IMG/VR virus record: IMGVR_UViG_3300008267_000360
Span: 1 to 38,001 of that record
Reading direction: 5' to 3' (one strand)
DNA length: 38,001 bases
Source: a virus
Positions 4,811 through 32,629 of the stretch are shown here, piece by piece. The first letter of the stretch is position 1. The number at the start of each line of letters is the position of its first letter. Both the position numbers and the translations under genes were made by a program. Below the pieces are notes generated by a model. It had not been told where the DNA came from. It saw only the letters and a program-made list of their open reading frames with translations, and ran no database searches.

Positions 4811-5425
4811 CTAATTAAATACTACTGGAGCCTTTTTTTCTCTATACTCACCTCCGCTACCTTGATACTGAGCCTTTTTATATTCTTCTTTATCTCCGAA
4901 TAAACCACCAACCCATCCTAACGCACTACAAACCGCATCTCGGATTACACCTTTCATACTTTGAGCAAATTCGGTAGTTGCTAAACTGTCAACAATTGTT
5001 TTTCTAAGAGCTACGGTTAAAATATCTTCATCAACAAATTGTCTTGCAACATATTTTGTAATGATTTCAGGTAGTTGAGCAACAATTAAATCACTAAATT
5101 TACCACAATTAGTTAAGATACCTGGTATTTCAGTCCACTTAGCATTTGCCAATACAACTTCAACAGTATCACGTAAAAATCCTTCTTCCATACCCATACC
5201 GTCAAGGATTGAGGAAATTACTCTTTCCCAAATTGTGTTCATCCCTGTACCACCAAACCATCCTTTAAGTTTATTACCCATATCATCTAACAAACCTTCA
5301 TTTAAAGATTTGTTTTTTTCAATAGACTCTAAAAGTTGTGGTAACACAATCTTCATTCTGTACTTTGGTGGTGATTGTATAAACTTCTCACAAAGTATTT
5401 TAAATTCTTGTTCTTGTCTTGTCAT
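4811..5425 (-). CDS. Hypothetical leader-type protein, 204 aa
   Basis: Not recognised. A helical N-terminus runs to LNEG at residues 41-44, which fits the [L/I]-x-E-[G] site shared by the leader set. Next come a Gly-rich segment (LKGWFGGTGM), a helical body (about 60-160), and a Gly-Trp segment (ALGWVGGLFGDKEEYKKAQ) that may insert in or lie on a membrane. The Met at 5425 (MTRQEQEF) is used; 5452 would lengthen a 26-base overlap with the upstream gene. It is the last gene of an overlapping trio. Confidence 0.7.
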   Translation of the reverse strand: MTRQEQEFKILCEKFIQSPPKYRMKIVLPQLLESIEKNKSLNEGLLDDMGNKLKGWFGGTGMNTIWERVISSILDGMGMEEGFLRDTVEVVLANAKWTEIPGILTNCGKFSDLIVAQLPEIITKYVARQFVDEDILTVALRKTIVDSLATTEFAQSMKGVIRDAVCSALGWVGGLFGDKEEYKKAQYQGSGGEYREKKAPVVFN

Positions 5426-6974
5426 TTTTTTTAAGTATTTCAGTATTCTCACTAAGAGTTTTATTCATATCATAGTTCATCATTAACAAAGCTCTGTTTA
5501 ATGCTTCAACTGACTCCATTCTTGGTAATTCTCTTCTTTGTTTTTTATTTATATCTCTTTTGTTAAACCCGTACATTTTAACAACTTTATTTTCACCACT
5601 ACCTAAGTCTTTCCAATTGAAGTTAAACTTGTTTAGACACGCAAAACATTTGGCTTTATATGCTGGGTTTGCGGAATGTTCTTTTCTTTCACATTTTTTC
5701 CACGAATTATACCAATTAACTGCCTCACTAAATAAAATCTTACAATCGTCCTTTGATATATCATCATCCTCTTGTTGTAAAATAGAAATAACACTTCCTG
5801 GTGTCGAACAACCTTCAATAATTATATTAGAGTTTCCTCCGTCTAAAACTACAGGTTGTGTGTTATCTTGAGTGAAATCGGTTTTACAGTAAGAAGATAC
5901 ATAACCTTTCAAGTACTTTTTCTTATCTCCCATAAACGCATATCCATCTTCACCTGAACTTGCTTTAGTTCCACAGAAACAAATTACATCTTGTAAATTA
6001 TCACAGTGCATTTCGGTATCCATTTGGTAATTGATAACTATTCTACATTCTCTTCTTAAGAATGATGGGTCATCAGATGACATATTTTCTCTAATACTAT
6101 TGTACGCTCTTATAACTTGCTTATCAGTAATCTTACATAAACTCTCAACAACATCTTCAGTGTCAGGATTGGTAGTAATCACAGAAGTTTGAGTAGGGGT
6201 TGTACCAACACCTCCAACATTAGTCACTGTACTCGATGATAAAGGGGTATTAGCATTTGGCTTATTACATATTCCCATAGTTGAAATGGTTTGTGGTCCC
6301 GCAATACCATCAGGTTTTAATCCGATACTTGACTGGTATTTAATTACCATAGCCTTTGTTAATGGTCCGTAAATCCCATCAACCTTTCCTGTTTTAGAAA
6401 CATTTTTAAATCCTTTAGAAATTAAAAATTCCTGTACAGGGTTTACTGAGTCTCCTTTCATACAATTTTTTAAATATGATGAACCTGAACATAAACTATC
6501 TAAAGATGGTGCTTGTTTACAATTTCCTTTTTTAATTATAGTTTCTTGTTCTTTTTCAGGATTAACAATAGGTGTTATTAATTGTGAATCTTGACCTGTA
6601 TTACTTCCACTACCAAAATTTAAATCAAATGTTTTTTGGTCATTAGGGTTAATCACATTAACTCCTATTGAAGTAAGGTGAGAAAACATTTGTTTAACCG
6701 AATTCCAATCTGTTTTTCTTTCAAAATTAAATTCGTCATCAATAAATTCTCTTAAATTATATTGGTCATTAACAGCTCTAGCCGTTTCTAAGTTAGGAAT
6801 TTCTTTAATTGCCTCAACTGCAACATCTTCATCAGTGCCCATACCTGTACCAAATCCAAACCAGTTATCGGATGTTGATTTTTTAAGTTTGTTGACAATT
6901 TCGGTAACTTTACTTTGGTCAACAGATTCTTTTAAAATCCTTTTAACAATTTCTTTTATTTTACTATCATTCAT
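5400..6974 (-). CDS. Peptidoglycan-binding protein with N-terminal leader
   Basis: The first 20 residues (MNDSKIKEIVKRILKESVDQ) are a leader helix ending at ILKE-S. Residues 40-80 include GTGMGTDED, reminiscent of the annexin GxGTDE loop. At about 170-240 a PG_binding_1-like repeat is clear: VQEFLISKGF, DGIYGPLTKAMVIKYQ, LKPDGIAGPQTI. A Cys-rich region at about 285-430 contains some ten cysteines and may form disulfides. The C-terminus is basic. It probably sits in the virion or tail and holds onto the cell wall. It overlaps both neighbours. Confidence 0.8.
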   Translation of the reverse strand: MNDSKIKEIVKRILKESVDQSKVTEIVNKLKKSTSDNWFGFGTGMGTDEDVAVEAIKEIPNLETARAVNDQYNLREFIDDEFNFERKTDWNSVKQMFSHLTSIGVNVINPNDQKTFDLNFGSGSNTGQDSQLITPIVNPEKEQETIIKKGNCKQAPSLDSLCSGSSYLKNCMKGDSVNPVQEFLISKGFKNVSKTGKVDGIYGPLTKAMVIKYQSSIGLKPDGIAGPQTISTMGICNKPNANTPLSSSTVTNVGGVGTTPTQTSVITTNPDTEDVVESLCKITDKQVIRAYNSIRENMSSDDPSFLRRECRIVINYQMDTEMHCDNLQDVICFCGTKASSGEDGYAFMGDKKKYLKGYVSSYCKTDFTQDNTQPVVLDGGNSNIIIEGCSTPGSVISILQQEDDDISKDDCKILFSEAVNWYNSWKKCERKEHSANPAYKAKCFACLNKFNFNWKDLGSGENKVVKMYGFNKRDINKKQRRELPRMESVEALNRALLMMNYDMNKTLSENTEILKKNDKTRTRI

Positions 6975-7273
6975 AATAACGTATTTGATTTTCCTCGTTT
7001 AATTCCTGTTGTCCATTTTTCTTTATTATTCACAGGATTTGCTTTACCCCTTGTTAATCCACTTTCCCATTTTGTATTACCAATTTGATTTGCCTTTCCT
7101 CTTGTCAATCCTGTTTCCCATTTTGTAACTGTTGGATAACCTGCGGGGGGTGATGGAGCGGATGATGTGGTTGTTGACCCACCCGCTGCGGGTGCCGCAG
7201 CGTCTTGCTCATTAAGTTCATCTTTTGAAAAACTTTTGAGTAAATTAATGTATGTGTTAAAGTCAAACAACAT
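6971..7273 (-). CDS. Leader protein with three KWxTGLxRGKxN repeats
   Basis: The leader region ends at ELNEQ (residues 19-23). An Ala/Gly/Ser/Pro-rich linker follows (about 24-47), then three basic repeats: KWETGLTRGKAN, KWESGLTRGKAN and KWTTGIKRGKSN. The last repeat ends almost at the C-terminus. The unit is not one I can name; a regular W-G-RGK pattern suggests binding to nucleic acid or to a repeating surface. The stop overlaps the next gene's start by four bases, and TATTTATAAGATA lies upstream of the ATG, so this gene starts the operon. Confidence 0.75.
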   Translation of the reverse strand: MLFDFNTYINLLKSFSKDELNEQDAAAPAAGGSTTTSSAPSPPAGYPTVTKWETGLTRGKANQIGNTKWESGLTRGKANPVNNKEKWTTGIKRGKSNTLL

Positions 7274-7334
7274 TTTTATCTTATAAATATTTTTATATAT
7301 GAAAAAAAGTAGTATATTCGTAAAAAAAAGGAAT

Positions 7335-8158: not shown

Positions 8159-8168
8159 TTTTTAAATT

Positions 8169-8636
8169 TTACTTGATTAATTTTTTGAACCAATCTAAAG
8201 ATTTGTCAATGTCTTCCATAACCATATTAGACTTTGACTTTAATTTAACGTTTTCTTCTAATTCTTCCATAGTATATCCCTTACTACCACACTCACACAT
8301 TTCACCTTCAGACATTTCACCGCCACATCGCTCACACATTTCACCTTCAGACATTTTTCCACTACTACATTGTTCACACATTTCACCTTCATATAATCCG
8401 CTACATTGTTCACAAACTTTTTTAAGTTTTTTGTTAACTTCAGTGTTTGTGTATTTTTTAACTTCACCTAAATTACTAACTGTTACACCTTCTTTATCCA
8501 ATGCGTAATCACCAACAGTTAATGGTGACATATTACCTTTGCTTTGTAATGCTTGGTATCCGTTATAAAGACTTCTGTGTTTTTCAGTGATTGAGGTTTT
8601 CTCTTGTTCTGATATGTTTAAAAAATAAGGGTTCAT
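8169..8636 (-). CDS. Leader protein with tandem zinc-ribbon-like CxxC repeats
   Basis: The N-terminus from Met 8636 (MNPYFLNISEQEKTSITEKH) is a type C leader. Residues of about 83-130 hold four copies of a Cys motif, CEQCSGLYEGEM, CEQCSSGKMSEGEM, CERCGGEMSEGEM and CECGSKGY, a clear tandem amplification at both DNA and protein level. The C-terminus ends DIDKSLDWFKKLIK, the same tail as the M23 peptidase. TATTTAT lies upstream at about 8656-8662. The earlier Met (8675) would add a non-leader stretch and is rejected. Confidence 0.75.
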   Translation of the reverse strand: MNPYFLNISEQEKTSITEKHRSLYNGYQALQSKGNMSPLTVGDYALDKEGVTVSNLGEVKKYTNTEVNKKLKKVCEQCSGLYEGEMCEQCSSGKMSEGEMCERCGGEMSEGEMCECGSKGYTMEELEENVKLKSKSNMVMEDIDKSLDWFKKLIK

Positions 8637-8709
8637 AATTAAAATGTTTTGCAATAAATATATGATATTAGACATTTGACAAAAAAAATATTTTTATTAT
8701 TTTTAACGA

Positions 8710-10044: not shown

Positions 10045-10666
10045 GTCAAAGATTATATTGAGTGAACAACAACGTAAAATGATTCTTATTGAGTCAGTAT
10101 CTAACGATATTGAAGATGTACAAAAACATTCTGAAAAACTATCTGAAAAAATTTATTCCGAAATTAAAAATCAGTTATCGTTTGATTTTAAAATTCTTTT
10201 AACTTGGAGTACCGCAATTGGTGGATTTCTCACTCCATTAACCCAATTAATTAAAGGAGAAAATCCTGAGTTAAGTGAAATGGATTCATATCTAATTTTA
10301 TGTGGTGTTGTGTTTACCGTATTGTTTCAAAACAAAGAAAATTTTAAATTAGTTAAAGACGAATTAGTTAAACGTGGGATATATGATACATTTTTATATG
10401 TTAAAGATAAAGCTTTGGATTTAAGAAAAACATTTTTTAGTTTTTTGTCAGGTTTAAACATTACAACCCATACAATGTCAGGTATTGTCGCATATTCATT
10501 TTTAATCCCAATTGTTCCAATTCTAATGCAATTATCGTCAGGTGAATCATTAAGTCCTGATGATATTTCTGAAATAGTAAAAAGGGTATCTGCTTGGGGA
10601 CTAACAATTGTCTCAGCAAACACCCTTAAAAATGTTATTACTAAAATTATAAGTAAATTTAATTAG
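10043..10666 (+). CDS. Multi-pass membrane protein with type B leader
   Basis: It begins MSKIILSEQQRKMILIES, a type B leader with possible cleavage sites at LSEQ and LIES. A helical stretch (about 20-55) is followed by four likely membrane segments at about 57-75, 90-108, 140-165 and 185-203. The leader plus membrane segments suggest delivery into, or assembly at, a membrane. Holin and infection-membrane roles are possible but not shown. The 3' end overlaps the opposing gene by eight bases. Confidence 0.7.
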   Translation: MSKIILSEQQRKMILIESVSNDIEDVQKHSEKLSEKIYSEIKNQLSFDFKILLTWSTAIGGFLTPLTQLIKGENPELSEMDSYLILCGVVFTVLFQNKENFKLVKDELVKRGIYDTFLYVKDKALDLRKTFFSFLSGLNITTHTMSGIVAYSFLIPIVPILMQLSSGESLSPDDISEIVKRVSAWGLTIVSANTLKNVITKIISKFN

Positions 10667-11921
10667 GACTCCAAGGGTCATCAGATGCTCCTCCACCTCC
10701 AACACCTGATAGTCCTGAAAGGATAATATACGTGAGTAATCCGAAAATAACCCATTCCCCTGAATACTTAAGAAACTTTTTACCCTTTTTTAATATACCG
10801 GCACCTAAACTAAGTGCATCGTCAGCCTTTGCACCTAATGTACTTAAAAGTGTATCAATGTTTTTATTACCTGTTTTACCTAAATTAGCCAATTTCAATT
10901 TACCTGAAGCGACATCACTAAACTTTTTTAATACTGACGCTTGTTCAGGTGAAAGTTTTGACGATAAGGTTCTGTACATCCTCTCAAGTTGTTTTGAGTT
11001 TATATCTCTGGCCGTCTTAGTCGAGGTATATGCTTCAATAAAATCAATGAACATTTGATTATTTTCTGGTGATAATGTACCGTCAAATGATTTTAGTTTT
11101 GTCTCAAGTTTATTTAATTCTTTTACATATTTTGAAGTTGCTCTGTTTACTACAGGTACTGAACCAAATACATCAGCCATTTGGTCCCATCTATTGTTAG
11201 GAGGTAAGTAAGATTCAATTTGTTGTTCAAATTTACTTGTGCCACCCCCAAAATCAAAATCATTTACAGGTCGGTCATCAGGTTTAGGAGGGATTGGACC
11301 GTCCTTAGATTTTGATGAACCTCCTTTAGCATTAATTTTTTCTTCAATCTTATCAAGATATTGAGTTTCAAAATTATGTTTAACCTCTAATGTAAACGCA
11401 TCTGATGTATCTAAATCATTAATATACGATTCTAATTGAAGTTTAAATTTTTCCAATTCTTCAAGAGTAAGTTTATCCCCTCTTTCCGCGGCGTATCTAA
11501 TAATTCTCGCAAAGTCATTTCCCATAATAGCATCAGCAGCGTATCTTGTAAATTTCGCAGGATTTTGCTTTGATAACGCAACTACAAAATCTTCTAACAC
11601 ATCGTCAGTAGTATTTTTAAAATATTTTTCAATAACGTCATTTGGTTTTGCCGATGACAAATACTCCTTTTCAAATTGTGCATATAATCCATCAATATCT
11701 GATGTTCCGGGATTAGATGTTTTCAACATATTTTTAAGCTCAATTAATGAAGCTTGTTCAACACCTTGTTTCATACCTATCTTAACTGCATTTTGAAGAC
11801 CTGGTATTCCTTCATTCAATAAATTTTCACTTTCAAGTAGATAGTTTTTTTTGGTTGCAGTTATATGCATATTAAGAATTCTTTCTCTTTCAGATTCATT
11901 AATTACAAATAAATTTTTCAT
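10659..11921 (-). CDS. Large leader-bearing protein with C-terminal membrane segment
   Basis: A type C leader (MKNLFVINESERERILNMH) is followed by LLNEG at residues 34-38, a predicted cleavage site. Most of the 420 residues are helical and charged, with a low-complexity linker at about 200-225. The C-terminus has one membrane segment (WVIFGLLTYIILSGLSG) and a Gly-rich tail. No named domain was found. Helical body plus terminal membrane segment fits an internal virion or ejection protein. TATTTATAAAAAA precedes the start. Confidence 0.75.
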   Translation of the reverse strand: MKNLFVINESERERILNMHITATKKNYLLESENLLNEGIPGLQNAVKIGMKQGVEQASLIELKNMLKTSNPGTSDIDGLYAQFEKEYLSSAKPNDVIEKYFKNTTDDVLEDFVVALSKQNPAKFTRYAADAIMGNDFARIIRYAAERGDKLTLEELEKFKLQLESYINDLDTSDAFTLEVKHNFETQYLDKIEEKINAKGGSSKSKDGPIPPKPDDRPVNDFDFGGGTSKFEQQIESYLPPNNRWDQMADVFGSVPVVNRATSKYVKELNKLETKLKSFDGTLSPENNQMFIDFIEAYTSTKTARDINSKQLERMYRTLSSKLSPEQASVLKKFSDVASGKLKLANLGKTGNKNIDTLLSTLGAKADDALSLGAGILKKGKKFLKYSGEWVIFGLLTYIILSGLSGVGGGGASDDPWSPN

Positions 11922-11941
11922 ATATTTTTTTTATAAATAGT

Positions 11942-13453
11942 TTATTCAGGATAATCATCGGCAATTCTTGCTAAAACATCATCAATTTCCTCCTGTTTAA
12001 TATTTTGTTTTGTGGGTTTTTTAATTTTTATCATACTTTTTAACTCAGTTACCACTTCTTCAGGATGATTTACAAATGTCTCAAATTCTTCTTTATTGTC
12101 AAGCATTGCGTCAGCCATAACATTTTGAGTGTCTTTATCAAGTTCACCAATAGCTTTAATAATTTTGTCAGCATTTTCTTGAGTTAATTTAATATCGTGA
12201 ACTTTAAATAAATTCATAAACTTTTTTAATATGTCTTGACCTATTTTAGTTGTTGAAGCGGCTACAGCGGCGGTTAATAAATCCCAAGCAAGATATTCTG
12301 TGTTGTAAATTTTTGAATAACTTTTTAAATACGCTTTTTGTTGTTCTGTTAATTTCTCTCCTTGGGTTTGTAAGATATTGTCGGCTCGTCGTGCAATTGA
12401 TTCTTTAATCTCACTATTAAGTTTTGAAGGATTTAAAGTTTTTAAACTTTCAATAAACTCTATTTCAAAACTATTTAATTGTTTTAAAGGTTTACCTGAC
12501 GCAATTCTTTTTTCAATCATTTTTTGACCTTTCATTAGCTTAGCACTTTTGGTAATATTAGACGCAATTTTAAGTTCAGGTAGTAGTGTAACCACTAACA
12601 TAAACATACCCATATCCTTATCACCTTCCGCATAATAAAGAGACGCATCAATAGTACCAATCGCAGCAGAAATTACAGGACCTGCAACAGGTATAAATGC
12701 GGTACCTAATTCTAATACTGCTAAAATATTATGTATTTCTTCCGAAGTTAATCCTGTCTTATATTCTAAACTTTTAGCATTAACCGATTGTTGACCTTTA
12801 CTCATACCTGGAGCACTTCTGTTAACAAATGCTGACTTAGGAGATTCATTTATTTTAGTAATTACATTAATATAACTTGGCCCATAACAAGCAACTACAT
12901 CAGCATAACTTGGTATATGACCTGTATAACGTTTAATACTATTTGGACTTAACAACCCACCACTACTTTGTACACCTGAATCAAATGTTATTTTATCATA
13001 TGGTTTGTAATAAGCGATATCCTCATTATAACATATTGTTGAAACATTATACGTAGTTGTCGAGTTTTTATTATAATCAAGTCGTTTAATTATGTTACCT
13101 GATTTACAAGATTCTCTGCCGGGAGTTTTCCAAGATTTAGGACATCTACCTTCAGGAAACCATCCCCATTTTTCCGCAACTTTAAATTCAACTTCTTGAG
13201 CAAACCAAACAGCGTAAACCGCATACCATTGGTCTTCATTTACAACTCTGAAAATATCCATATTTGGTCTATTCGCAGAAGGTACTCCAACTGAATCAAA
13301 TAACTGAGATTGTCTTTGTTTGGATAAATAATATTTTTTGTAATATTGGTCGTACTCCAATTTCTGTTCAATCAATAATAAATTATCAGAATACGTTGTT
13401 GATTCATCGTATTCCATTAATAATTTAATTCTATTTAAGATATTTTCACTCAT
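11942..13453 (-). CDS. Large leader-bearing protein with toxin-like hydrophobic region
   Basis: The leader MSENILNRIKLLMEYDES runs to LLIEQ at residues 26-30. Residues of about 35-200 form a Trp/Tyr/Cys-rich domain. At about 245-295 lies a small-residue hydrophobic segment (AFIPVAGPVISAAIGTIDA, then MFMLVVTLLPEL) like those in polymorphic-toxin and pre-toxin regions. The C-terminal half is helical. It is the downstream partner of the cupin gene (overlap eight bases). A toxin or ejected membrane protein is plausible; no catalytic motif is visible. Confidence 0.7.
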   Translation of the reverse strand: MSENILNRIKLLMEYDESTTYSDNLLLIEQKLEYDQYYKKYYLSKQRQSQLFDSVGVPSANRPNMDIFRVVNEDQWYAVYAVWFAQEVEFKVAEKWGWFPEGRCPKSWKTPGRESCKSGNIIKRLDYNKNSTTTYNVSTICYNEDIAYYKPYDKITFDSGVQSSGGLLSPNSIKRYTGHIPSYADVVACYGPSYINVITKINESPKSAFVNRSAPGMSKGQQSVNAKSLEYKTGLTSEEIHNILAVLELGTAFIPVAGPVISAAIGTIDASLYYAEGDKDMGMFMLVVTLLPELKIASNITKSAKLMKGQKMIEKRIASGKPLKQLNSFEIEFIESLKTLNPSKLNSEIKESIARRADNILQTQGEKLTEQQKAYLKSYSKIYNTEYLAWDLLTAAVAASTTKIGQDILKKFMNLFKVHDIKLTQENADKIIKAIGELDKDTQNVMADAMLDNKEEFETFVNHPEEVVTELKSMIKIKKPTKQNIKQEEIDDVLARIADDYPE

Positions 13454-13718
13454 TAATAAATGTGATTTTAATTTTTAAATCACCTTCCCCCTTTATTGTT
13501 CTATGATAAATACCTTCAGGGATTAAATACTCACCTCCTACGTTCATTTTAATAGGTAACCCATTATCCAATTGTAGTGACCATCCGTTACCCTCAATAA
13601 CCTCAACTAATCGTGTTTCTCGGTCTCTATGCCAGTGTAACTCACCTGAATCAACGTCAGAGTTGAATACTCGTATTTTGGAATTTTCAGTTATTTCAGA
13701 ATCAATGTAAGGTTTCAT
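13446..13718 (-). CDS. Small cupin-fold protein
   Basis: A 90-aa single-domain cupin. GELHWHRDRETRLVEVIEG gives the HxHx...E metal-binding first motif, and GGEYLIPEGIYHR the second motif (G.....P..H). Such small cupins bind a metal or ligand, but substrates cannot be inferred from this alone. It overlaps the next gene by eight bases and the preceding gene by four. Confidence 0.8.
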   Translation of the reverse strand: MKPYIDSEITENSKIRVFNSDVDSGELHWHRDRETRLVEVIEGNGWSLQLDNGLPIKMNVGGEYLIPEGIYHRTIKGEGDLKIKITFINE

Positions 13719-14254
13719 ATATTACCAATACCCAGGATAAGTTTTACCTCCCCACAAAATTGGTGTCTTGCGGCAAATGATTTACGGGCTTTAGGATTCG
13801 ATACTTTAGCGGTTAATCCTCCGTGAACATCACCAAAAGAAATTTTCTTAACTCTACCTGTTGATGGGTTTTTTACATATACAACGTACTTTTTCCCTCC
13901 GCCGGTATTTCTTCTTGGTTTACCTATCTCAACCTTTTTACCATTATATTCAGCTTCATTAATGAATTCTTCAGATAATGGAAGGTCTAAATAAACTTCC
14001 ATACCATTTGATAATCTTACTTTTTCACCCAAATCAGTTTCAATAATTTCAACCTCTTCTTCGTTTAATGTAATCTCACCATCAAAATATAATTCTCTTA
14101 CTTCATTAATTAAATCAAAAAATGATTCAGAATGAGGTCTGTAAATGTTTTCAGTTAATGGTATGTTATTTTTTAAGTGGTATTTTAAACCTTCAGAACC
14201 AACCAATTCAGTTTGCTCCTTTAAAACCTTTTTAATTAAATTTTCAATTTTCAT
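13715..14254 (-). CDS. Leader protein with conserved basic C-terminal domain; possible frameshift
   Basis: A short leader ends at VLKEQ (residues 10-14). An acidic middle follows. From about residue 115 the motif KKYVVYVKNPSTGRVKKISF and then NPKARKSFAARH matches a domain I recall from hypothetical proteins of large phages and viruses, usually ending in a short Cys/Gly/Tyr/Trp tail. Here the frame instead runs into GEVKLILGIGNI*. The -1 frame gives WGGKTYPGYW*, ending at 13722, which looks like the expected tail (see findings). It begins four bases inside the upstream membrane gene. Confidence 0.65.
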   Translation of the reverse strand: MKIENLIKKVLKEQTELVGSEGLKYHLKNNIPLTENIYRPHSESFFDLINEVRELYFDGEITLNEEEVEIIETDLGEKVRLSNGMEVYLDLPLSEEFINEAEYNGKKVEIGKPRRNTGGGKKYVVYVKNPSTGRVKKISFGDVHGGLTAKVSNPKARKSFAARHQFCGEVKLILGIGNI

Positions 14255-21543: not shown

Positions 21544-21945
21544 TTACGCTCTAACAAAATCAATATTTTGTAACGTACTTTCTAATGTAAATTGTCTTTT
21601 GTTATTTTGTTTAGCATCATACCATTTACTGGCAAATTGTTTTTGGTCATCAGAGTCCATACAATAAGATTTTCTAATTGTCCAATCCTGGCTATTTCCA
21701 ACACAAATTTCTCCGTTAGAATTCCATAAACCTTTAACCACCAAATATTGGTCTCTACCATTTTGTTCAGGAAATTTCATTTTCCATTTAACACCTTCAA
21801 TTTCTAAAAGACCGTATTCAGCTAGTTTGATTGGTACCCAATTGTCAATTTTTTCATCTTCATTTAGTAATCTTTTATTTTCGCTGATTACTTTTTTAAC
21901 TAATCTAACGATATCTGATTCGGTTAATCTAACAACTTTTTTCAT
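21544..21945 (-). CDS. Type A leader protein, 133 aa
   Basis: MKKVVRLTESDIVRLVKKVI is a type A leader, followed by RLLNED at residues 25-30, matching the L-x-E site with D after it. The remaining 100 residues form a compact Trp-rich domain (GVKWKMKFPEQNGRDQYLVV, NSQDWTIRKSYC) of no named family. The Met at 21945 starts the leader; a TATTTATTAATAA element lies upstream. Confidence 0.72.
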   Translation of the reverse strand: MKKVVRLTESDIVRLVKKVISENKRLLNEDEKIDNWVPIKLAEYGLLEIEGVKWKMKFPEQNGRDQYLVVKGLWNSNGEICVGNSQDWTIRKSYCMDSDDQKQFASKWYDAKQNNKRQFTLESTLQNIDFVRA

Positions 21946-22530: not shown

Positions 22531-23889
22531 TTACTGAACAAACGAACTATCTTGATTACTTAAGTAATTACCAGCCTTTAACATACCCCAAAATTGGTTG
22601 TTATCGTTTTGTGTGATAGTGTAGTCATTACCTTTATATTTCATAACTAAATTACCATTTGATGTAGACCAAGAACCTGTTGTCTTATCGTACACAGGTG
22701 AGAACGCCGACTTGTCTTTTTGTAAAACCAAAACTCCATCAGGATAAAAATCAACTAAAACATATGGTCTGTCAGTTGAGGAAGCGACTTGTAATTTTTT
22801 ATCGTCGTTTTTAGTCTTATGGAAATTATTCATTAATTTTTTAACTAATGGAAAATCTAATGCCGATGATTGAGGTTGATTAGTGTTACCACCTTTAAGG
22901 TATTCCTGCCCATATTGTTTAAATGCTCTTTTGATATATGAATTTTTGTAACTACCACTTTTATCCAATTTATATTTTTTAGCCCATTCAGGGTATTTGG
23001 TATTAACCCATTGTCTAAATGCATCTCCTTCTTGTTTATTTTTAAATGGAAGTACGGTATTCGTAGTTGATTGTTGAGATGTACTAACAACACTTTGAGC
23101 CCCTGCAGGTTTTTGAATAGTGTATCTAATTGGATATCCTGTATATCCACCTGTCTCTTTTAACGCAACTAATTTTCTAATAACACTATATAAACTTGAT
23201 TCACCTTTCCAAAACATACTTAAAGTATCCGAAAATTGTTTTAAAACTTCATCTTTAGGTAAGTTAAACGCATTAAAATCATAGTTATCAATAATTTCAA
23301 TTTTATTGTCATCAATTTTTTTAACTCCTCCTTTTGAAATCTCTCCTAACGTATACATAAACTCTCCCGCCAATCCAGGATTTGATAAACTTGCAGCTTG
23401 TGGGTTGTTTTTTAATCTTTCAGTTTCAGATTTAATACCTTCAGGAGTAATCGCAGTTGGTAAATTTTGAGCTCCTAATGTTCTCCACATATCATATTTA
23501 AAACCATTTTTTAATCCGTATTTAGTTGCGACATCCCATAAGTAAGTTTTCTCACCACTCTTTAACATTGATTCGTTTTTAGTTTCGGTAGTACCAATAA
23601 GGTAATAATAAAGAGCCCTTAAGTGTAAAGGTAAGTTACTTATCACTAAGTTATTCAATGACAAATTAGATACCACATACTTTGTGAAGGTTGCCAATGA
23701 ATTGATAAAATCTCTGGATGCCTGCATTTGTTTTTCAGATTCTTCAGGAGTTTGTTGACTTCTTTCCAAATACCTCTCGTATGCGGTCTGTTCATTAATT
23801 AAATTAAGATACAAATTTTTTGTTGAGCTCTTATGCATCTCCAAAATTCTTGTCTTTTCATCTTCGGGTATTAAAAATTGATTTTTCAT
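22531..23889 (-). CDS. Large type C leader protein, 452 aa
   Basis: A type C leader (MKNQFLIPEDEKTRILEMH) ends at LINEQT (residues 30-35). The central part (about residues 90-240) is mixed and not recognised. At about 285-340 the segment EGDAFRQWVNTKYPEWAKKY, followed by NSYIKRAFKQYGQEY, looks like a small helical domain. The C-terminal 90 residues are beta-rich. TATTTATATAATATG lies at the start. Virion cargo is the best inference. Confidence 0.72.
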   Translation of the reverse strand: MKNQFLIPEDEKTRILEMHKSSTKNLYLNLINEQTAYERYLERSQQTPEESEKQMQASRDFINSLATFTKYVVSNLSLNNLVISNLPLHLRALYYYLIGTTETKNESMLKSGEKTYLWDVATKYGLKNGFKYDMWRTLGAQNLPTAITPEGIKSETERLKNNPQAASLSNPGLAGEFMYTLGEISKGGVKKIDDNKIEIIDNYDFNAFNLPKDEVLKQFSDTLSMFWKGESSLYSVIRKLVALKETGGYTGYPIRYTIQKPAGAQSVVSTSQQSTTNTVLPFKNKQEGDAFRQWVNTKYPEWAKKYKLDKSGSYKNSYIKRAFKQYGQEYLKGGNTNQPQSSALDFPLVKKLMNNFHKTKNDDKKLQVASSTDRPYVLVDFYPDGVLVLQKDKSAFSPVYDKTTGSWSTSNGNLVMKYKGNDYTITQNDNNQFWGMLKAGNYLSNQDSSFVQ

Positions 23890-24585: not shown

Positions 24586-25107
24586 TTATCTAAGATTAAC
24601 TATATAATCTTTTGGTATTATTTTTTCAATTTCCTCTTCTCTGATTTCTTTTTCAAAATTAAAATCGGTCCAATCAATCCCATTTAATTTTGTTGGTACT
24701 ACCCATATTGCCTTTTCTCTAAGACCTTTATCGTTAAAATCGGCCCAATCCCCACCTAATTCTATTGACATATCACTTATAAATGTCATAAGTTTGGTGA
24801 GTTCTGACCTATCGGTAATTTCAGGAACCTCAACCGCAACTGCCGATTCGTATAAATCATCCTCAGGGGAAGTAACGTCGTAAGTTAATACCCTAAATGG
24901 TAATTTGTATGATTTAAACTCTTTATCACCGTGGACACTAAAATATATACTCCCACCCAACTTAGAGTCAACTAATGCGTTTAAATAAGGGTATTTTGAA
25001 ATCTTTTCTCTAAATTTTTTGAGTCCTCCAAAATGTTCAGCAATAGTAATAATTGATGAACCTTTATCAATTAGATTTATAATTTTTTGAGAAAAGTTAT
25101 CGGACAT
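24586..25107 (-). CDS. Hypothetical protein, 173 aa
   Basis: Not recognised. The N-terminus is helical (FSQKIINLIDKGSSIITIAE); the rest is alpha/beta and acidic. There is no leader. It overlaps the stop of the upstream peptidoglycan-binding gene by one base and so belongs to the same transcript. The downstream plus-strand GAF-like gene ends one base from it. Confidence 0.7.
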   Translation of the reverse strand: MSDNFSQKIINLIDKGSSIITIAEHFGGLKKFREKISKYPYLNALVDSKLGGSIYFSVHGDKEFKSYKLPFRVLTYDVTSPEDDLYESAVAVEVPEITDRSELTKLMTFISDMSIELGGDWADFNDKGLREKAIWVVPTKLNGIDWTDFNFEKEIREEEIEKIIPKDYIVNLR

Positions 25108-25796
25108 TACTTTTTATTGAGTAATTGTAATACAGCGTCTGCAGTATATGGTCCAAATCTACCATCTTTACCTTTAGGCCCTAATGCATCACCAAGTCCC
25201 GCATCAATTACTTTTTGTTGAATTTGTGCAACTTTATTCTCAGATGGAGTTTCAGTAGATGTTTGAGTAGGTTCACCACCTTGTTCAGTACTTGTTGTTT
25301 GTTCTGTACCTGATGATTGCTGTCCTGAAATAAAACCTTTTAATGAGTTAATTTCAGTGTCCCCGATATACCCAGCTTTAAATTTATTAGGGTTTGATGT
25401 AATATACTGAGCAATTTGTGATTGTAAGGATTTTTCAGAAATTGACCCTGAAAAAGTTTTACCGTCGGATAAAGTTATTTTAACATTTTTATCGTCGGCA
25501 GTCCATTGACCTGTAGTCGCCGCTGGGGCACCTGTACCTGTATTTTTAATATCAAAATATCCATTATTACAAACATTAGAAATGATATTACTTCTAAGTT
25601 TACCGTCATAGATTGTAGTCTGCCAGCAATCACCTTCTTTGTCGGGTTGAGAGAATCCAATAGTTTTTGCAACTGTCTCAGATGAAGTTTTTTGTCCTGA
25701 TGGATACAATGTACTGTTAAAAATATCCATAGCGGTTTGCTCGTAAAGATTCTTGATTCTTTTTCTTTCGTCTTCGGTAATAATAAATTTTTTCAT
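25107..25796 (-). CDS. Type C leader protein with C-terminal peptidoglycan-binding domain
   Basis: MKKFIITEDERKRIKNLYEQ ends at the LYEQ site (residues 17-20). A beta-rich middle (about 30-150) and a Thr/Ser/Glu-rich linker (155-185) lead to a PG_binding_1-like end at about residues 190-229, with VAQIQQKVIDAGL and GKDGRFGPYTADAVLQL. The same arrangement, leader then linker then wall-binding unit, is seen in the 5400-6974 protein. TATTTATTGGTATG lies at the start. Confidence 0.78.
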   Translation of the reverse strand: MKKFIITEDERKRIKNLYEQTAMDIFNSTLYPSGQKTSSETVAKTIGFSQPDKEGDCWQTTIYDGKLRSNIISNVCNNGYFDIKNTGTGAPAATTGQWTADDKNVKITLSDGKTFSGSISEKSLQSQIAQYITSNPNKFKAGYIGDTEINSLKGFISGQQSSGTEQTTSTEQGGEPTQTSTETPSENKVAQIQQKVIDAGLGDALGPKGKDGRFGPYTADAVLQLLNKK

Positions 25797-26092: not shown

Positions 26093-26242
26093 TTACTTTT
26101 CAGTTAGGAACGTTTTAACATCTCCTGATTTTGTTTCAATCAGTTTTTTGAAATTTTCAATGACAATTTTTTTACCACCTTCGTGTTGTTCACGAATTGC
26201 GTTTTTTGTCTCCTCAGATAAATCGTTTAATAAATGTTTCAT
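26093..26242 (-). CDS. Stand-alone leader peptide (49 aa)
   Basis: The whole protein equals the first 49 residues of the 28813-29217 protein in register, with about 60% identity. The alignment pairs MKHLLNDLSEETKNAIREQH with MKHLLNNLTEEEKNSIRRQH, then the shared TKSGDVK and FLTE/FLNE. It stops at FLTEK*, one residue after the Glu where the long paralogue continues with NEQTSS. It has its own TATTTAT element and terminator. It may be a truncated duplicate, or a real free leader. Confidence 0.75.
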   Translation of the reverse strand: MKHLLNDLSEETKNAIREQHEGGKKIVIENFKKLIETKSGDVKTFLTEK

Positions 26243-26527: not shown

Positions 26528-26815
26528 TTAACAATTATCATAATGCTCGTAAATTAAAGGGTTGTGTCCCGAAAAATTTCTAAATAGGTTACCGTATTCA
26601 TTTACAGTTTTACGTAAAAAATTACTTTGTTTCCCTCCGTCATTCAAATCAGTTAAATAGTTTCTGTCAAAAAAAATATTTAAAACAAATCTATTCATCA
26701 TATCATCATAATCAATCATAACATTACAGACACCATCATACGATTGTTTATTCAAAAATTTTGAGAATATTTTTATAATACCTTCGACTTGGGATTCAGT
26801 AATAATAATTTTCAT
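26528..26815 (-). CDS. Type B leader protein, 95 aa
   Basis: MKIIITESQVEGIIKIFSKF is a type B leader without an obvious L-x-E site behind it. The rest is a small beta-rich domain with an acidic strand (VMIDYDDMMNRFVLNIFFD). Its start codon is one base from the stop of the upstream leader gene at 26817, so both are on one transcript. Confidence 0.7.
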   Translation of the reverse strand: MKIIITESQVEGIIKIFSKFLNKQSYDGVCNVMIDYDDMMNRFVLNIFFDRNYLTDLNDGGKQSNFLRKTVNEYGNLFRNFSGHNPLIYEHYDNC

Positions 26816-26816
26816 A

Positions 26817-27152
26817 TTAATTACCCATTCCTGATTTTGCCAACTTTGTTAGGTTGTCATATATTTTACTTAAATCCCCTTTAGTTGCAGCATTTACTAA
26901 TACGTCATACTGACTACCCAATTGTTGTTTGTAGTTACCAATAGAATCAACTACACCTTTACTATCGCCAGTTAAACAATCCCATATAATACCTCCAATA
27001 ACATTTGATGGTAAAACTTTTACCGCCAATTTAATTGCGTTATATAAAATTTCACCCATATTCGCAGAAGTACCAACAAATGTTTGTTCTTGGATGACTC
27101 TTGTCACAATTCTTGTAACGTCTGATTCTGATAGTTTAACAATTTTTTTCAT
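26817..27152 (-). CDS. Type A leader protein, 111 aa
   Basis: MKKIVKLSESDVTRIVTRVI ends at VIQEQT (residues 19-24), one of the clearest leader-plus-site examples. The 88 residues after it hold a hydrophobic Gly-containing helix (LPSNVIGGIIWDCLTG) and a helical end. The Met at 27152 directly follows the TATTTATAATT element; 27176 would place the leader internally. Confidence 0.75.
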   Translation of the reverse strand: MKKIVKLSESDVTRIVTRVIQEQTFVGTSANMGEILYNAIKLAVKVLPSNVIGGIIWDCLTGDSKGVVDSIGNYKQQLGSQYDVLVNAATKGDLSKIYDNLTKLAKSGMGN

Positions 27153-27772: not shown

Positions 27773-28789
27773 TTATCCTTTTTTCCAAGTACTTCTCCTA
27801 ATATATTCTCCTGTTGTGGTATTTTGTTTAAAATCATCTTCTTTAACCATAACATACCCGCCAGCGTTAAGTCTCCTCTTATCATCATTATACATTGTAT
27901 CTAAATTTTGTCTTTGTGTACTTTTTTTAACTAAACAAATATCATATCCACTTTGGGACTTACAAAAATCTTCAGATACTTTATCTTTATCACTTTTATA
28001 AATAATACTTTTCAACTCATCTACAGTTGTTGTTGTTGTCGTTGTACTACCTGCATTGTCGTTTTTACTTGAGGTAACAGGTGTATTTGTTGGTTTGTTA
28101 GGATTATAACTTGTGTTATTGTAAAGTTCTTCTTGACTTTCCGGTGTACTTGTTACATCGTTTAAATATCTAACATAGGGACGACCAATTGGAGTTAGAA
28201 AATTATAAGTTTCTTTAGTGAATGGTTGACCTTCAGTTGCCGAATAAAATTTAAACCCACCAATTGGCATATCTACTAACTCAGTAGGGTACTTTTGTTT
28301 TATCTCATCAACAGTAAGGTTTGTACCAATACCCGTCATATCAATACCTTTTGACATTCCAACCTTATCTACATATTTTCCAAATGTTTTGAATGATGGC
28401 ATTTTAGTAAATAATTGTGTTATAATACTCTCAACGTCCGGACCATAAGCACTAACAACATCTGTCGGTGTTGTTGTTGCGGTAGTCGGTGCCGTTGTAT
28501 TAGTCTGTCCTGCGGCTTTAGTCTGAGTTTTTCCAGGTAACTTTAATTTCTGACCGACACGAATTAAATTGACATTTTTAATTTGATTTAAAGTTGCAAT
28601 TTCTCTCCAATTCAGTCCCAATTTTTGGCCAATCTTACTTAATGTATCACCTCTTTGAACTGTATATTCTTCGTTTGAGGTTTGTTCACTAATCATTTGT
28701 TGGTTATTAAACCTTTCATTCAGAAGTCGTTCTTCAAGTCTAAGATTCGCTTCTTGTATGTGTCTAATTTTACTATAACTTTTGTTCAT
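27773..28789 (-). CDS. LysM-domain protein with leader-like N-terminus
   Basis: Residues 1-37 are a charged helix ending at MISEQT (residues 32-37), the leader cleavage form. A LysM domain follows immediately at 42-85 (YTVQRGDTLSKIGQKLGL, LIRVGQKLKLPG), which binds peptidoglycan glycan chains. A Thr/Ala linker leads to a second domain of about 130 residues, another Ser/Thr-rich linker, and a C-terminal Cys/Lys domain (about 270-338). It lies 24 bases downstream of the 28813-29217 leader gene. Confidence 0.8.
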   Translation of the reverse strand: MNKSYSKIRHIQEANLRLEERLLNERFNNQQMISEQTSNEEYTVQRGDTLSKIGQKLGLNWREIATLNQIKNVNLIRVGQKLKLPGKTQTKAAGQTNTTAPTTATTTPTDVVSAYGPDVESIITQLFTKMPSFKTFGKYVDKVGMSKGIDMTGIGTNLTVDEIKQKYPTELVDMPIGGFKFYSATEGQPFTKETYNFLTPIGRPYVRYLNDVTSTPESQEELYNNTSYNPNKPTNTPVTSSKNDNAGSTTTTTTTVDELKSIIYKSDKDKVSEDFCKSQSGYDICLVKKSTQRQNLDTMYNDDKRRLNAGGYVMVKEDDFKQNTTTGEYIRRSTWKKG

Positions 28790-28812: not shown

Positions 28813-29217
28813 TTAAATAGAACTGTCGTATCTATCATCTAACTTTTCAATTGGAAATGGACCTACACCATATTTCCATCTTTCAGGAGAGACAACAAAA
28901 ATTACCATCTTCCCATCAGATATTAATTTAACATTACCTTTAACATAATACTTATACGTTGGGTATTTTTTTATTAATTGTAACAATCGGTCTTTTTGTT
29001 GACCATTAGGTAATGAATTAATTTCCACTAATTGATAACCTTTTTGTATTAAAGGGTCGTTACTTGAGGTTTGTTCATTCAAGAATAATTTTACATCTCC
29101 TGACTTAGTGTTAATTAATTTTGAAAAATTTTCCGTAACAACGTTCATTCCTCCGGTATGTTGTCTACGTATAGAGTTTTTTTCTTCCTCTGTTAAATTA
29201 TTTAATAAATGTTTCAT
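28813..29217 (-). CDS. Leader protein, 134 aa (long paralogue of the stand-alone leader)
   Basis: MKHLLNNLTEEEKNSIRRQH to LFLNEQT (site at residues 46-49) is nearly the same in layout as the 49-aa protein at 26093-26242. After the site comes a small domain (about 55-134; YQLVEINSLPNGQQKDRLLQ, YKYYVKGNVKLISDGKMVIF) with no named family. The unit starts at a GTATTTATATATTATG element, and the LysM gene follows on the same transcript. Confidence 0.75.
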   Translation of the reverse strand: MKHLLNNLTEEEKNSIRRQHTGGMNVVTENFSKLINTKSGDVKLFLNEQTSSNDPLIQKGYQLVEINSLPNGQQKDRLLQLIKKYPTYKYYVKGNVKLISDGKMVIFVVSPERWKYGVGPFPIEKLDDRYDSSI

Positions 29218-29712: not shown

Positions 29713-30117
29713 TTATTTCTTTTTCTTCTTTTTAATCCTGTATTTAAATGCCTCATCATCCTCGCCGTTACCTTCTTCATCCATAAAAAGACAATCAATA
29801 TCTAATCCAGTTAATTTTGAGAAGTGGTCAATCATCAATTTTGCAAATAATTTTTTTCTAAAAAGTGGTGCGAAATCTTTCAATTTATCAATAGTGCTAG
29901 TGTAAATCATAAGTTCGTATTTACATTTTTTCGTTATCATATGACTTGATGAACTTATAATCCATCCCATTTCTTCACCACCAACTGAAAAATCCAAACT
30001 ATCATCATCATCATCATCATCACCACTGGTTCTATCAAACTCAACGTCTTTGAAAAAGATGTTAATTAATCTATTTACAACTTTTGTGTATTGTTCTTTT
30101 GTAATTTTATACTTCAT
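29713..30117 (-). CDS. Type B leader protein with poly-Asp run, 134 aa
   Basis: MKYKITKEQYTKVVNRLINI is a type B leader variant. A run of seven Asp (about residues 34-40) is encoded by GAT/GAC repeats and follows an acidic segment. The remainder is alpha/beta, ending in a run of Lys (KKKKKK). The Met at 30117 starts the leader. Upstream, TATTTATATTTG combines the phage-type and host-type elements. Confidence 0.7.
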   Translation of the reverse strand: MKYKITKEQYTKVVNRLINIFFKDVEFDRTSGDDDDDDDSLDFSVGGEEMGWIISSSSHMITKKCKYELMIYTSTIDKLKDFAPLFRKKLFAKLMIDHFSKLTGLDIDCLFMDEEGNGEDDEAFKYRIKKKKKK

Positions 30118-30520: not shown

Positions 30521-30588
30521 ATTACAATAAATACATTAGAAATAAAAAGGGGGTTGGGGGATTGAACAACAGAGAAAAATTATTTTTT
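30518..30588 (-). repeat. Intergenic cassette repeat, copy 2
   Basis: Core AAAAAGGGGGTTGGGGGATTG then AACAACAGAGAAAAATTATTT. It joins the 30580 gene's stop to the 30520 start codon with the element GTATTTATTGTAATATG. Confidence 0.8.
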
Positions 30589-31242
30589 ACAATCATCAAA
30601 TTTTTTGGATATAATTTCTTTCAATTCATCAAGTTCAGAGCGGAACCCTAAATTATAATGCCAAGCAATTTCATTCGAATATCTTTTTTTCATTTCCTCA
30701 ATTACTTCATCAGATGCTTGTTTTATTAATTCACATTCATCACTATAATCATTATAAAACCATCTATCAATCATTTCTTCCACAGTGTCTTGTATAGGTT
30801 TCCTCCATATAATCAATGAAATAATACGATGAATTAATGTACTAATTCTTTTTGATGTTTTTCTTTCAATAGACTTTAATTCTTTAAGGATATCACCATT
30901 AAGGTAATTTGATTCAATTAAATCTAACAATAAATTTATGGCTTTATCTTGATTATATCCGTTAATTGATAAGTTGTATTTAACACCTCCATCATTATTA
31001 TAAATTAATAATCTTAATCCTCCACCTGAATTTTCGTTTCTAATATCACCATAAAAATTTCTTACTTTGGTGGTGTTATCCAATAACTTATATAGTTTGG
31101 TATTTTCTAAAACATCAAAAATATTTAAACTGTCTTCCTTTTCTCCAATTCGTTTTGCTGGACGTTTTTTATCAGATTCGTTAACCACCCTACTGACTAT
31201 TCTAATCAAATCTGATTCAGTTAATCTTACAACTTTTTTCAT
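30580..31242 (-). CDS. Type A leader protein, 220 aa
   Basis: MKKVVRLTESDLIRIVSRVV ends at VVNES (residues 19-23). A basic stretch KKRPAKRIGEK follows (24-35) and is shared with the next gene. The rest is a helical, charged domain (about 60-220). Its ATG overlaps the stop of the 31239 gene by four bases. The unit is bounded by cassette copies 2 and 3, so it is a two-gene cassette. Confidence 0.72.
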   Translation of the reverse strand: MKKVVRLTESDLIRIVSRVVNESDKKRPAKRIGEKEDSLNIFDVLENTKLYKLLDNTTKVRNFYGDIRNENSGGGLRLLIYNNDGGVKYNLSINGYNQDKAINLLLDLIESNYLNGDILKELKSIERKTSKRISTLIHRIISLIIWRKPIQDTVEEMIDRWFYNDYSDECELIKQASDEVIEEMKKRYSNEIAWHYNLGFRSELDELKEIISKKFDDCKK

Positions 31243-31589
31243 ATTTCTTTTACAAATTGACCAAGACCAAGACTATTGAAACCTTTACTTCTTAATTTGT
31301 TTTTAACTCGGTTGGCATCCTCCCTCTCGAATCCCGCATCAACAAAATCATAAGGAGCTCCGACATCAACAATAATGTATTTATGGGACACATCAAATTT
31401 AACACATCCACCTGTAATATATTCTCTTAAATAACCACGGATTTCGTCATAAAAACTAGGTTTATCCTCAATTTGATTTGACGGACGTTTTTCGTCGGAA
31501 CTAAGTTTATCCCCAATTCGTTTGGCTGGACGTTTTTTAATAGATTCAATTAATCTTTGAATTTGTGATTCGGTAACAATGTATTTCAT
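31239..31589 (-). CDS. Type B leader protein, 116 aa
   Basis: MKYIVTESQIQRLIESIKKR is a type B leader. KKRPAKRIGDK follows, then a second copy, EKRPSNQIEDK, i.e. an internal duplication of about 15 residues. A small domain (YREYITGG-like strand, then DVGAPYDFVDAGFEREDANR) ends the protein. It is cotranscribed with 30580-31242, with which it shares the KRPxxxIxxK motif. Confidence 0.72.
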   Translation of the reverse strand: MKYIVTESQIQRLIESIKKRPAKRIGDKLSSDEKRPSNQIEDKPSFYDEIRGYLREYITGGCVKFDVSHKYIIVDVGAPYDFVDAGFEREDANRVKNKLRSKGFNSLGLGQFVKEI

Positions 31590-31655: not shown

Positions 31656-31660
31656 AGAAA

Positions 31661-32200
31661 TTAATCCATTATTTTTTTTTGATATTCTTCTTTATAAAGT
31701 TTTTCAAAATCATCAATAATTTTGTTTTGAGCTTTTTCACTAATCCTTCCATTAATGGTCTTTTCCAATTTAGAATAGAATTCATCTTCTCCGTCAGGGT
31801 TATTCATATAGTCCCACTTAATGCGGTTTGTGGGATACGTATTTCGTTTCCATATACCATTTTCTGTTTTATAATTAAAATTCACTTTAGTATTCCAAAA
31901 AATGGAAATTTCAACTTTACCTGAAGATTTTGTTATATGATAGATAATAACCAAAGCTGGTTCACTCCTATTATATTTTCTAAGTTCAGAAGTTAATTTA
32001 TCAGGATTAATAAAAAATGCGGGATATTGCATATAACTATAGTTTCCAAATCTACCTTGGAACTTGGAGTTTAGAAAATCGGTTACATCAGATTCAATTG
32101 CACTAGAAATATCGGTCTTTAAAAAACTTATTGTGTCCTCGTGTTTTTTAATTAGATTCCTTAATGCGGAATATTGTGCCTCAGTAATAATATATTTCAT
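31661..32200 (-). CDS. Type B leader protein, 179 aa
   Basis: MKYIITEAQYSALRNLIKKH is a type B leader. A helical part (about 20-50) and an alpha/beta domain (about 60-150, YMQYPAFFINPDKLTSELRK, VEISIFWNTKVNF) follow, then a charged helical end. It is not recognised. It stands alone between cassette copies 3 and 4. Confidence 0.72.
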   Translation of the reverse strand: MKYIITEAQYSALRNLIKKHEDTISFLKTDISSAIESDVTDFLNSKFQGRFGNYSYMQYPAFFINPDKLTSELRKYNRSEPALVIIYHITKSSGKVEISIFWNTKVNFNYKTENGIWKRNTYPTNRIKWDYMNNPDGEDEFYSKLEKTINGRISEKAQNKIIDDFEKLYKEEYQKKIMD

Positions 32201-32270
32201 ATATAAATAAATACACTAAAAACAAAAAAAGGGGTAGGGGGGATTGACAACGACGAAAAAAAATTATTTT
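32198..32270 (-). repeat. Intergenic cassette repeat, copy 4
   Basis: Core AAAAAAAGGGGTAGGGGGG then ATTGACAACGACGAAAAAAAATTATTT. It keeps the GTATTTATTTATATATG start-side element. Confidence 0.8.
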
Positions 32271-32629
32271 CTTCTTCTTAAAGTACTATACCCATCATCA
32301 ATAAATTTTTTCAAATAAGTTTCAACCTTATCTATAAAAAATTTATTCACCATTTCTGATGGCATAAATGCAAATAACTCTCTATTACTTTCAAGTTTCG
32401 GAAAATGTCCGTCAGGTGTTAATCTATTAAATCTGGAATCATATTTAAAGAAAAATTCATACCCAAGGTTATATCCAAGTTTTTCCCCATTTTTATAAAG
32501 ATAAACCGTTGCGGTTATTGAATCGTAACCATTATCATACAAATACAAAATATTGTATGTGATATTATGTCTTTTAAGAAGGTTTGAAAATAAATCGTCA
32601 GATTGGCTTTCAGTTATAATATACCTCAT
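32264..32629 (-). CDS. Type B leader protein, 121 aa
   Basis: MRYIITESQSDDLFSNLLKR is a type B leader. A beta-rich region follows (ITYNILYLYDNGYDSITATV), then a helical, basic end (RRRK). It resembles its neighbour at 31661-32200 only in the leader. It is a one-gene unit between cassette copies 4 and 5. Confidence 0.72.
   Translation of the reverse strand: MRYIITESQSDDLFSNLLKRHNITYNILYLYDNGYDSITATVYLYKNGEKLGYNLGYEFFFKYDSRFNRLTPDGHFPKLESNRELFAFMPSEMVNKFFIDKVETYLKKFIDDGYSTLRRRK

Follow-up and report, generated by a model that had tools for sequence, protein, structure and literature searches.

Shared short leaders closing on a prohead-protease-type site head many candidate capsid-cargo proteins in an uncultured virus

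The window analysed here is the whole 38,001-base stretch of the viral record IMGVR_UViG_3300008267_000360, a fragment with a G+C content of 31%. Many of its minus-strand genes encode otherwise differing proteins that begin with short related leaders (types A, B and C, and a seven-residue minimal form), and these leaders frequently close on an [LIV]xE site (Table 1). An earlier note on this DNA had proposed that the leaders send proteins to the virion and are removed at that site, as in phage T4. The 16 sites quoted in it were all recovered by translating the minus-strand genes from the starts given there, while some of those starts fall within longer open reading frames (ORFs) beginning with TTG or GTG, as for 16673-17089, which had been read from the ATG at 17056. 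The 4811-16000 region has no near match in the annotated phage collection. The 472-residue protein encoded by 17445-18863 (-), used as a query, retrieved 58 IMG/VR loci and also matched two huge phages well (635 and 642 kb), and the major capsid protein (MCP) of one relative, G003, is best matched among named phages by Microcystis phage Mel-JY01, Flavobacterium phage immuto and Rhodothermus phage RM378. The source of the window is likely a large, T4-like phage that infects Bacteroidota.

Table 1. Genes of the window with leaders or C-terminal tags. A slash follows the Glu of each site.
Gene (strand)	Description	Leader or tag	Position of leader or tag	Remark
729..1421 (-)	protein with C-terminal tag	KLNE/EILRIKELLRL, then stop	729-764	same tail in G006 33970
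1421..2587 (-)	M23 peptidase with C-terminal tag	LLQE/ELKMFKKLIK, then stop	1421-1453	
4811..5425 (-)	cargo gene	43 residues, ends ..KSLNE/GLLDD	5297-5425	homolog G006 29911 has KMLSE/D
5400..6974 (-)	PG_binding_1 cargo	MNDSKIKEIVKRILKE/S	6927-6974	
6971..7273 (-)	KWESG-type repeat cargo	22 residues, ends DELNE/Q	7208-7273	
8169..8636 (-)	type C leader protein with C-terminal tag	tag VME/DIDKSLDWFKKLIK, then stop	8169-8213	
10659..11921 (-)	cargo without assigned identity	type C, 37 residues, ends LLNE/G	11811-11921	
11942..13453 (-)	leader protein	MSENILNRIKLLMEY..LLLIE/Q	13367-13453	resembles scaffold-tail helix by eye
13715..14254 (-)		MKIENLIKKVLKE/Q	14216-14254	
16673..17056 (-)		type C, 30 residues, ends KLFE/Q	16967-17056	
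17445..18863 (-)	DHH-fold phosphoesterase-like cargo	MKNLLTE/G	18843-18863	
20579..20980 (-)		type A, two sites, VNE/TEMNE/Q	20900-20980	
21544..21945 (-)		type A, two sites, ISE/NKRLLNE/D	21859-21945	
22531..23889 (-)		type C, 33 residues, ends LINE/Q	23791-23889	
25107..25796 (-)		type C, MKKFIITEDERKRIKNLYE/Q	25740-25796	
26093..26242 (-)	leader-only gene	49 residues, FLTEK then stop		
26528..26815 (-)		type B start, without site		
26817..27152 (-)		type A, ends VIQE/Q	27087-27152	
27773..28789 (-)	LysM cargo (domain from residue 42)	35 residues, ends MISE/Q	28685-28789	
28813..29217 (-)		type C, 48 residues, ends FLNE/Q	29074-29217	
29713..30117 (-)		type B start, without site		
30580..31242 (-)		type A, ends VVNE/S	31177-31242	
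31239..31589 (-)		type B start, MKYIVTESQIQRLIE/S		
31661..32200 (-)		type B start, without site		
32264..32629 (-)		type B start, without site		

The leaders recur well beyond the window. Searched at E <= 1 against the window and 61 loci, three profiles built from the window's own leaders matched 51, 32 and 72 times. Once the set was enlarged to 146 sequences (2.73 Mb), 94 of these bore Met-anchored leaders, on a total of 225 ORFs, which reduce to 144 nonredundant ones (65 type A, 54 type C and 25 type B); the earlier statement that related leaders head many otherwise differing proteins is borne out in the window and its relatives alike. The DNA pattern of type A was met in at least 119 stretches of viral contigs against three in a collection of bacterial and archaeal genomes, all three on contigs of metagenome-assembled genomes. 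A tblastn search of annotated phages with a 28-residue type A leader returned nothing, and neither did one with the peptide of a further class, LAGI, despite the LAGI leaders carried by immuto; since that query missed leaders that are present, short queries are insensitive there and the type A result is uninformative. Two genes consist of a leader alone and stop at the would-be cleavage site, one in the window (26093-26242, FLTEK) and one in L015 (2416-2562, PLINE).

The closing site is far more frequent in type A and C leaders than chance would allow. For this comparison, leader entries shorter than 60 residues and near-identical ones were dropped, 1,994 genes served as control, and the pattern [LIVMF]xE[AGSTQDN] was sought in residues 17-28 for type A, 21-55 for type C and 17-55 for type B. 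It was present in 55/65 type A leaders against 241/1994 controls (12%; Fisher 2e-38; shuffles, mean 9.9 and maximum 17) and in 36/54 type C leaders against 618/1994 controls (31%; Fisher 1e-7; shuffles, mean 14.3 and maximum 25). Further downstream in the same proteins the site was not in excess (10/65 for A, 11/54 for C), and type B showed no enrichment (10/25 against 34% of controls, p = 0.34). Gln follows the Glu in 35% of cases, compared with a background of 5%. Many leaders also hold an LxE within their core ([LI]TE/S, around residue 9), which lay outside the tested ranges, and such leaders would offer two possible cuts. The type A helix itself can be repeated: proteins at G001 246807-247859 (L094 6807-7859) and L058 1087-2133 carry tandem type A helices with an xE site after each, plus a C-terminal tag, and the G001 protein also matches EF-hand or dockerin domains. 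Type B proteins cluster among small proteins (window 29713-32629, G003 14504-24741), and in G003 seven of the ten type B genes lie on the strand opposite the capsid gene, unlike most A and C genes. Type B is probably a different story.

A motif at the leader end with near-constant spacing, as seen in type A, could also belong to a docking domain that is retained in mature head or tail proteins, with xE capping the helix and left uncut. The unenriched site of type B and the xE that forms part of the helix start in C-terminal tags are consistent with this alternative. It fits poorly with type C and with families of homologous cargos that carry different leaders: in these, the site lies at changing distances from the leader core but remains close to the cargo, and its middle residue is unconstrained. 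Within the DHH family, a short leader, MKNLLTE, and two longer ones, MKKIVRLSENQMTEVVKRMLIE and MKRLKLTESEIDSLIDRVLLKE, finish at one column, one residue before G-[IL]-[RK]; [LI]xE occupies that column in 35/37 nonredundant rows (two of the 35 had stop-broken ORFs and were read separately), its middle residue varies freely, and it is preceded by short leaders and by two type A-like ones. In the two exceptions, the rows L060 and L061 of the huge phages, INE is shifted by one residue towards the N-terminus. In the KKPKG family, encoded beside the capsid gene, the site stands directly before the core in 45/45 rows in eleven spellings, from LKE (22) and VNE (5) to IHE (1); in the YMFF family, whose leaders are type A, short or B-like, it precedes the core in 34/34. 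Eight KKPKG and 13 YMFF rows without a recognisable core were left out. The KWESG family keeps the site in 4/4 members, whose N-termini differ except in the window/G006 pair. Judged from these alignments, the site is part of the cargo boundary, being kept there when homologous cargos carry different leaders. The same motif also occurs where maturation cleavage of the MCP is expected, as described below, and a retained, uncut docking domain appears unlikely.

For the DHH protein, an AlphaFold model (18 sequences; predicted local distance difference test (pLDDT) 80.8, predicted template modelling score 0.81) places residues 1-7 below a pLDDT of 50, as it does three other short stretches, and begins its first helix at residue 8. 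The fold is like that of DhhP and RecJ type phosphoesterases (best E 3.5e-6; template modelling score 0.32 by query length). In several homologs (L025 9976-10126; L054, L055 and L056, each 9976-10126), the gene has an in-frame stop inside the DxDG motif, after a Leu codon and before a Leu codon readable by the same tRNA (CTT TAG CTT; CTC TGA GGG CTT); the other listed homologs read straight through this position. The arrangement looks like translational bypassing of the T4 gene 60 type or the scar of a homing endonuclease.

The relatives provide both a candidate protease and a matching capsid site. Among 21 relatives' records, the Peptidase S77 (U9) prohead protease scores over the cut-off in six and at E <= 0.01 in eight, and the Gp23 capsid protein over the cut-off in eight. 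In G003 the gene order is terminase, portal, two small genes, protease, scaffold (named by position) and capsid protein, which is the order in T4. LINE/ stands nine residues ahead of a conserved FETVVFP in 84/84 MCP precursors, and the residue after its Glu is A in 81, S in one and Q in two; this site is presumably equivalent to that of T4 gp23. The scaffold also has xE sites, for example LSE/Q near the N-terminus in many members. With one contig removed (L529, the same as L432), the protease was present in 12/15 contigs of at least 100 kb that bear the type A pattern (9/9 above 145 kb) and in 5/17 of 50-100 kb. Leader genes are often neighbours of the head genes: one lies within 6 kb downstream of the MCP gene in 43/61 capsid loci having at least 1.5 kb of downstream sequence.

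They also share an upstream motif with part of the head-gene block. TATTTAT occurs within 60 nt upstream of 115/181 leader genes, against 614/2,081 others, often 20-24 nt before the start codon. Within 120 nt it precedes 50/50 scaffold, 41/41 protease and 25/30 portal genes, counts for which there is no 120-nt background rate from other genes. TATTTAT is likely a late promoter element of this clade. The late promoter word of T4, TATAAATA, was not notable upstream of leader genes (14/181 against 90/2,081). The enriched upstream motif would also suit a recombination cassette of promoter, ribosome site and start, conserved as DNA and spreading accessory genes without any function of the encoded peptide. 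Leader-only ORFs and the presence of similar leaders on unrelated proteins agree with such a cassette, as does the identity of most codons at identical residues of paralogous type A leaders in four of five genomes. Yet a quarter to over half of those codons differ (window 23/62, G003 43/133, G006 23/89, G002 35/103, G001 17/27), the site stays next to the cargo behind different leaders, and related xE-bearing helices occur at C-termini, all of which make a cassette very improbable.

What the predicted genes present directly are modular leaders, a conserved site at which differences between leaders end, a protease and a matching capsid site in relatives, and an upstream motif common to some head genes. 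From these we infer packaging, cleavage, ejection and a docking partner. A short N-terminal helix of type A or C, or the seven-residue minimal form, and sometimes a C-terminal helix, would dock the cargo in the core of an assembling T4-like prohead. The S77/U9 prohead protease would then cut after the Glu of [LIV]xE, the same motif as in the MCP precursor (LINE/A), and the cargo freed within the head could leave with the DNA at infection. We give a probability of about 0.84 to the reading that types A and C, with the minimal form and the C-terminal tags, are capsid-targeting propeptides removed by the prohead protease, like those of T4. The virion-cargo proposal of the earlier note gains support, for types A and C, from the site excess, the site kept at the cargo boundary, the matching site of the capsid precursor and the protease of most larger relatives, as well as from leader genes often lying near the capsid gene and often behind the motif that also precedes protease, scaffold and portal genes.

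Several observations weigh against this reading. Leader proteins have so far not been seen in any particle. The site is absent from the tested range in 10/65 type A and 18/54 type C leaders, and type B finds no support as part of the cleaved system, its site frequency being at chance; these leaders might, as the earlier note suggested, dock uncut. A general homology-boundary test was mildly positive, with 10/56 leader pairs against 2/56 when shifted, and 77/929 against 36/929 for other genes. TATTTAT within 120 nt precedes only 1/69 MCP genes and 6/22 terminase genes. No S77 protease gene was found in the 38-kb window, a fragment; the phage from which it comes presumably encodes one. Random contigs, a small control in which leader content was not considered, contained the protease in 2/3 cases of at least 100 kb and 1/8 of 50-100 kb. 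Because large phages often have an S77 protease, its co-occurrence with leaders fits the reading but discriminates poorly; the co-occurrence proposed earlier is found in most larger leader contigs, with a control too small to settle the matter.

A second leader class, RMQ-x-LAGI-ITE, appears from its sequence to resemble the last helix of the scaffold protein. In immuto (immuto_2-6A), two proteins, KNV73_gp230 (gene 25061-25456) and KNV73_gp083 (gene 111675-112139), begin MKKQILSEQF[KR]RMQ[FK]LAGIITE/S, and the scaffold ends SEQVSRWQKLAGIIK. The LAGI DNA pattern occurs in at least 120 stretches of viral contigs; 80 loci from these hold the core motif at 101 distinct places, 94 of them within 40 residues of the protein start. 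As the search pattern demanded ITE, counting ITE would be circular and only the following residue is informative: G in 42, S in 39, N in 10 and D in 1 of 92. A model built from 59 LAGI leaders, with immuto left out, ranked the scaffold tail first among the C-terminal tails of G021 (117 tails), G022 (158), G024 (22), immuto (184), Mel-JY01 (223) and RM378 (138), and second in G020 (167), G020-G024 being partly fetched. The lead is small in RM378 (2.8 against 2.2 bits), whose scaffold is so called because it adjoins the head gene. Immuto supplied the idea for the motif, and the other scaffolds were first spotted by their tails; those of G020, G021, G022, G024 and Mel-JY01 are homologous to that of immuto (E 2e-25 or better), so that the seven rankings are not independent. 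LAGI leader proteins were not found in Mel-JY01 or RM378, and the 146 sequences, which comprise the window's clade and two distant relatives, contain no LAGI motifs. The protease is present in 5/9 LAGI contigs, including all four of at least 130 kb.

Scaffolds of the window's clade end in FLRMKDLM-like tails, and in that clade the LAGI model places three of five scaffold tails 4th, 5th and 35th of 906. Among the tails of other proteins that outrank them are LNE/QFTRMKELWKYNKL, LNE/EILRIKELLRL and INE/ELKRMKQMWKHKL. A model of C-terminal tails matched 65/2,370 tails at 10 bits or more against 0/1,990 mid-protein stretches. The matches belong to 38 scaffolds, 4 proteases, 4 members of an unrelated-looking family and 19 further proteins. 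In 17 of these 19, five of which were seeds of the model, [LIV]xE lies where the helix begins. The window has three such tags, in 729-1421, 1421-2587 and 8169-8675; its M23 peptidase has homologs in G006 and G001 whose C-terminal tails are also helix-like but different. A leader similar to that of 11942..13453 heads otherwise unaligned proteins in L009, L012 and L013. Copying of the scaffold by types A, B and C was tested and found no support: their hidden Markov models find no scaffold at E <= 10, and the best scaffold tails rank only 29th, 198th and 336th of 906. By these comparisons, likeness to the scaffold is confined to the LAGI class and the C-terminal tags.

These likenesses suggest, tentatively, a two-ended ticket code based on scaffold mimicry. 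Cargos would copy the scaffold's last helix (E-x-F-x-R-M-K/Q-x-L) next to a prohead-protease site, either at the N-terminus (LAGI leaders, window 11942) or at the C-terminus (window 729, 1421 and 8169), dock where the scaffold tail docks, and then be cut free. Within each phage lineage, tickets and scaffold tail would evolve in step, and docking sites other than this one would be served by types A and C. We put this proposal at somewhat less than even odds. The match to the scaffold tail would point to a mechanism of capsid targeting, a process explained for T4 by an affinity of propeptides for the core (PMC9026906).

The cargos themselves are diverse. Pfam searches of 101 nonredundant type A and C leader proteins, with type B leaders and short ones left out, matched 18 families, including PG_binding_1 (five proteins), OmpA (four), EF-hands, S74 and DUF6576 (two each), and phage lysozyme, VanY, Tae4, TseH-like and PG_binding_3 (one each); the window adds LysM and M23 cargos. 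Length-matched control genes, which included DHH and scaffold proteins that the leader models do not flag, gave 66 families; the 25 listed are mainly cytosolic enzymes, with M23 (1/101) the sole wall-related one. As only 25 of the 66 control families were listed, the wall-related enrichment among cargos is suggestive. Many of the few nameable cargos bind or cut peptidoglycan, which makes an extracytoplasmic role plausible, and the leaders might address proteins elsewhere (periplasm, tail tube or a nucleus-like compartment) and be cut by a host protease or another phage protease. This is highly unlikely: by eye there is no hydrophobic stretch like that of a signal peptide, the motif equals that of the capsid precursor, the DHH protein resembles enzymes of cytosolic type, and the collection of bacterial and archaeal genomes hardly contains the type A pattern. 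If the capsid-targeting reading is true, the recognised cargos (peptidoglycan binders and cutters, domains like type VI secretion system amidases, the DHH phosphoesterase-like protein) are candidate entry and counter-defence proteins.

The principle is known from T4. In the available excerpts of the papers cited, the T4 capsid-targeting sequence (CTS) of IPI-III and Alt is a short N-terminal propeptide that places diverse proteins in the core and is cut by gp21 after L/I-x-E; Alt and gp21 are also processed C-terminally (PMC9026906, PMC3012670). The present leaders are likewise short, N-terminal and shared among unrelated proteins, their propeptide nature being a deduction; L/I-x-E closes them in types A and C and in the DHH, YMFF and KKPKG families, unlike type B; and the same motif marks the capsid precursor site. 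They differ in length (7-48 residues in the window), in sequence and in favouring Gln after the cut, and also in the number of candidate cargos (about twenty in 38 kb), in the C-terminal helix tags on several proteins and in forming lineage-specific classes, one resembling a scaffold tail. By eye they show no resemblance to the CTS, no dedicated comparison having been run. Cargo loading by fusion to scaffold, with the scaffold end as a tag, has been engineered in P22; here such tagging would be natural and N- or C-terminal, with a protease-type site to free the cargo.

Other phages offer partial parallels, again as given in excerpts of the sources. For P1 DarB, 30 N-terminal residues are enough to direct a protein to the head (PMC9024508); the present leaders differ from what is given there in being shared among proteins and in having a protease-type site. 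In phiKZ and SPN3US, many head proteins are cut after a short motif ending in Glu, and propeptides with several sites are described for phiKZ as built-in redundancy; the phiKZ motif is S/A-x-E, and that excerpt names no common leader (PMC9026906). The bS21 phages of freshwater Bacteroidetes, of up to 331 kb, have a conserved block of terminase, portal, prohead protease and MCP, and the part of the report available describes no leaders (PMC9723584). In the open-licence literature no paper was found that appears to describe the present leaders, and the earlier remark that no function is described for them holds in this sense, the principle itself having been described for T4. What is new is the scale, the leader classes, the C-terminal tags and the likeness to the scaffold tail. 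If the reading is true, protein ends would reveal which genes of uncultured phages encode head-packed proteins, probably delivered into the host, and what large phages inject, an open question, would become readable from sequence.

Elsewhere in the window, 19456-20283 (+) encodes a 275-residue protein with a class II aminoacyl-tRNA synthetase catalytic domain, near PHROG 29758, to which no function is assigned there. The gene at 37158-37682 (+) has, by eye, about four copies of an EEVLNSKVSTT-like repeat, and that at 3363-4199 (-) has CxxCxGxG-type repeats resembling, also by eye, the zinc region of DnaJ. A tRNA-Arg (TCT) gene lies at 3236-3310 (+).

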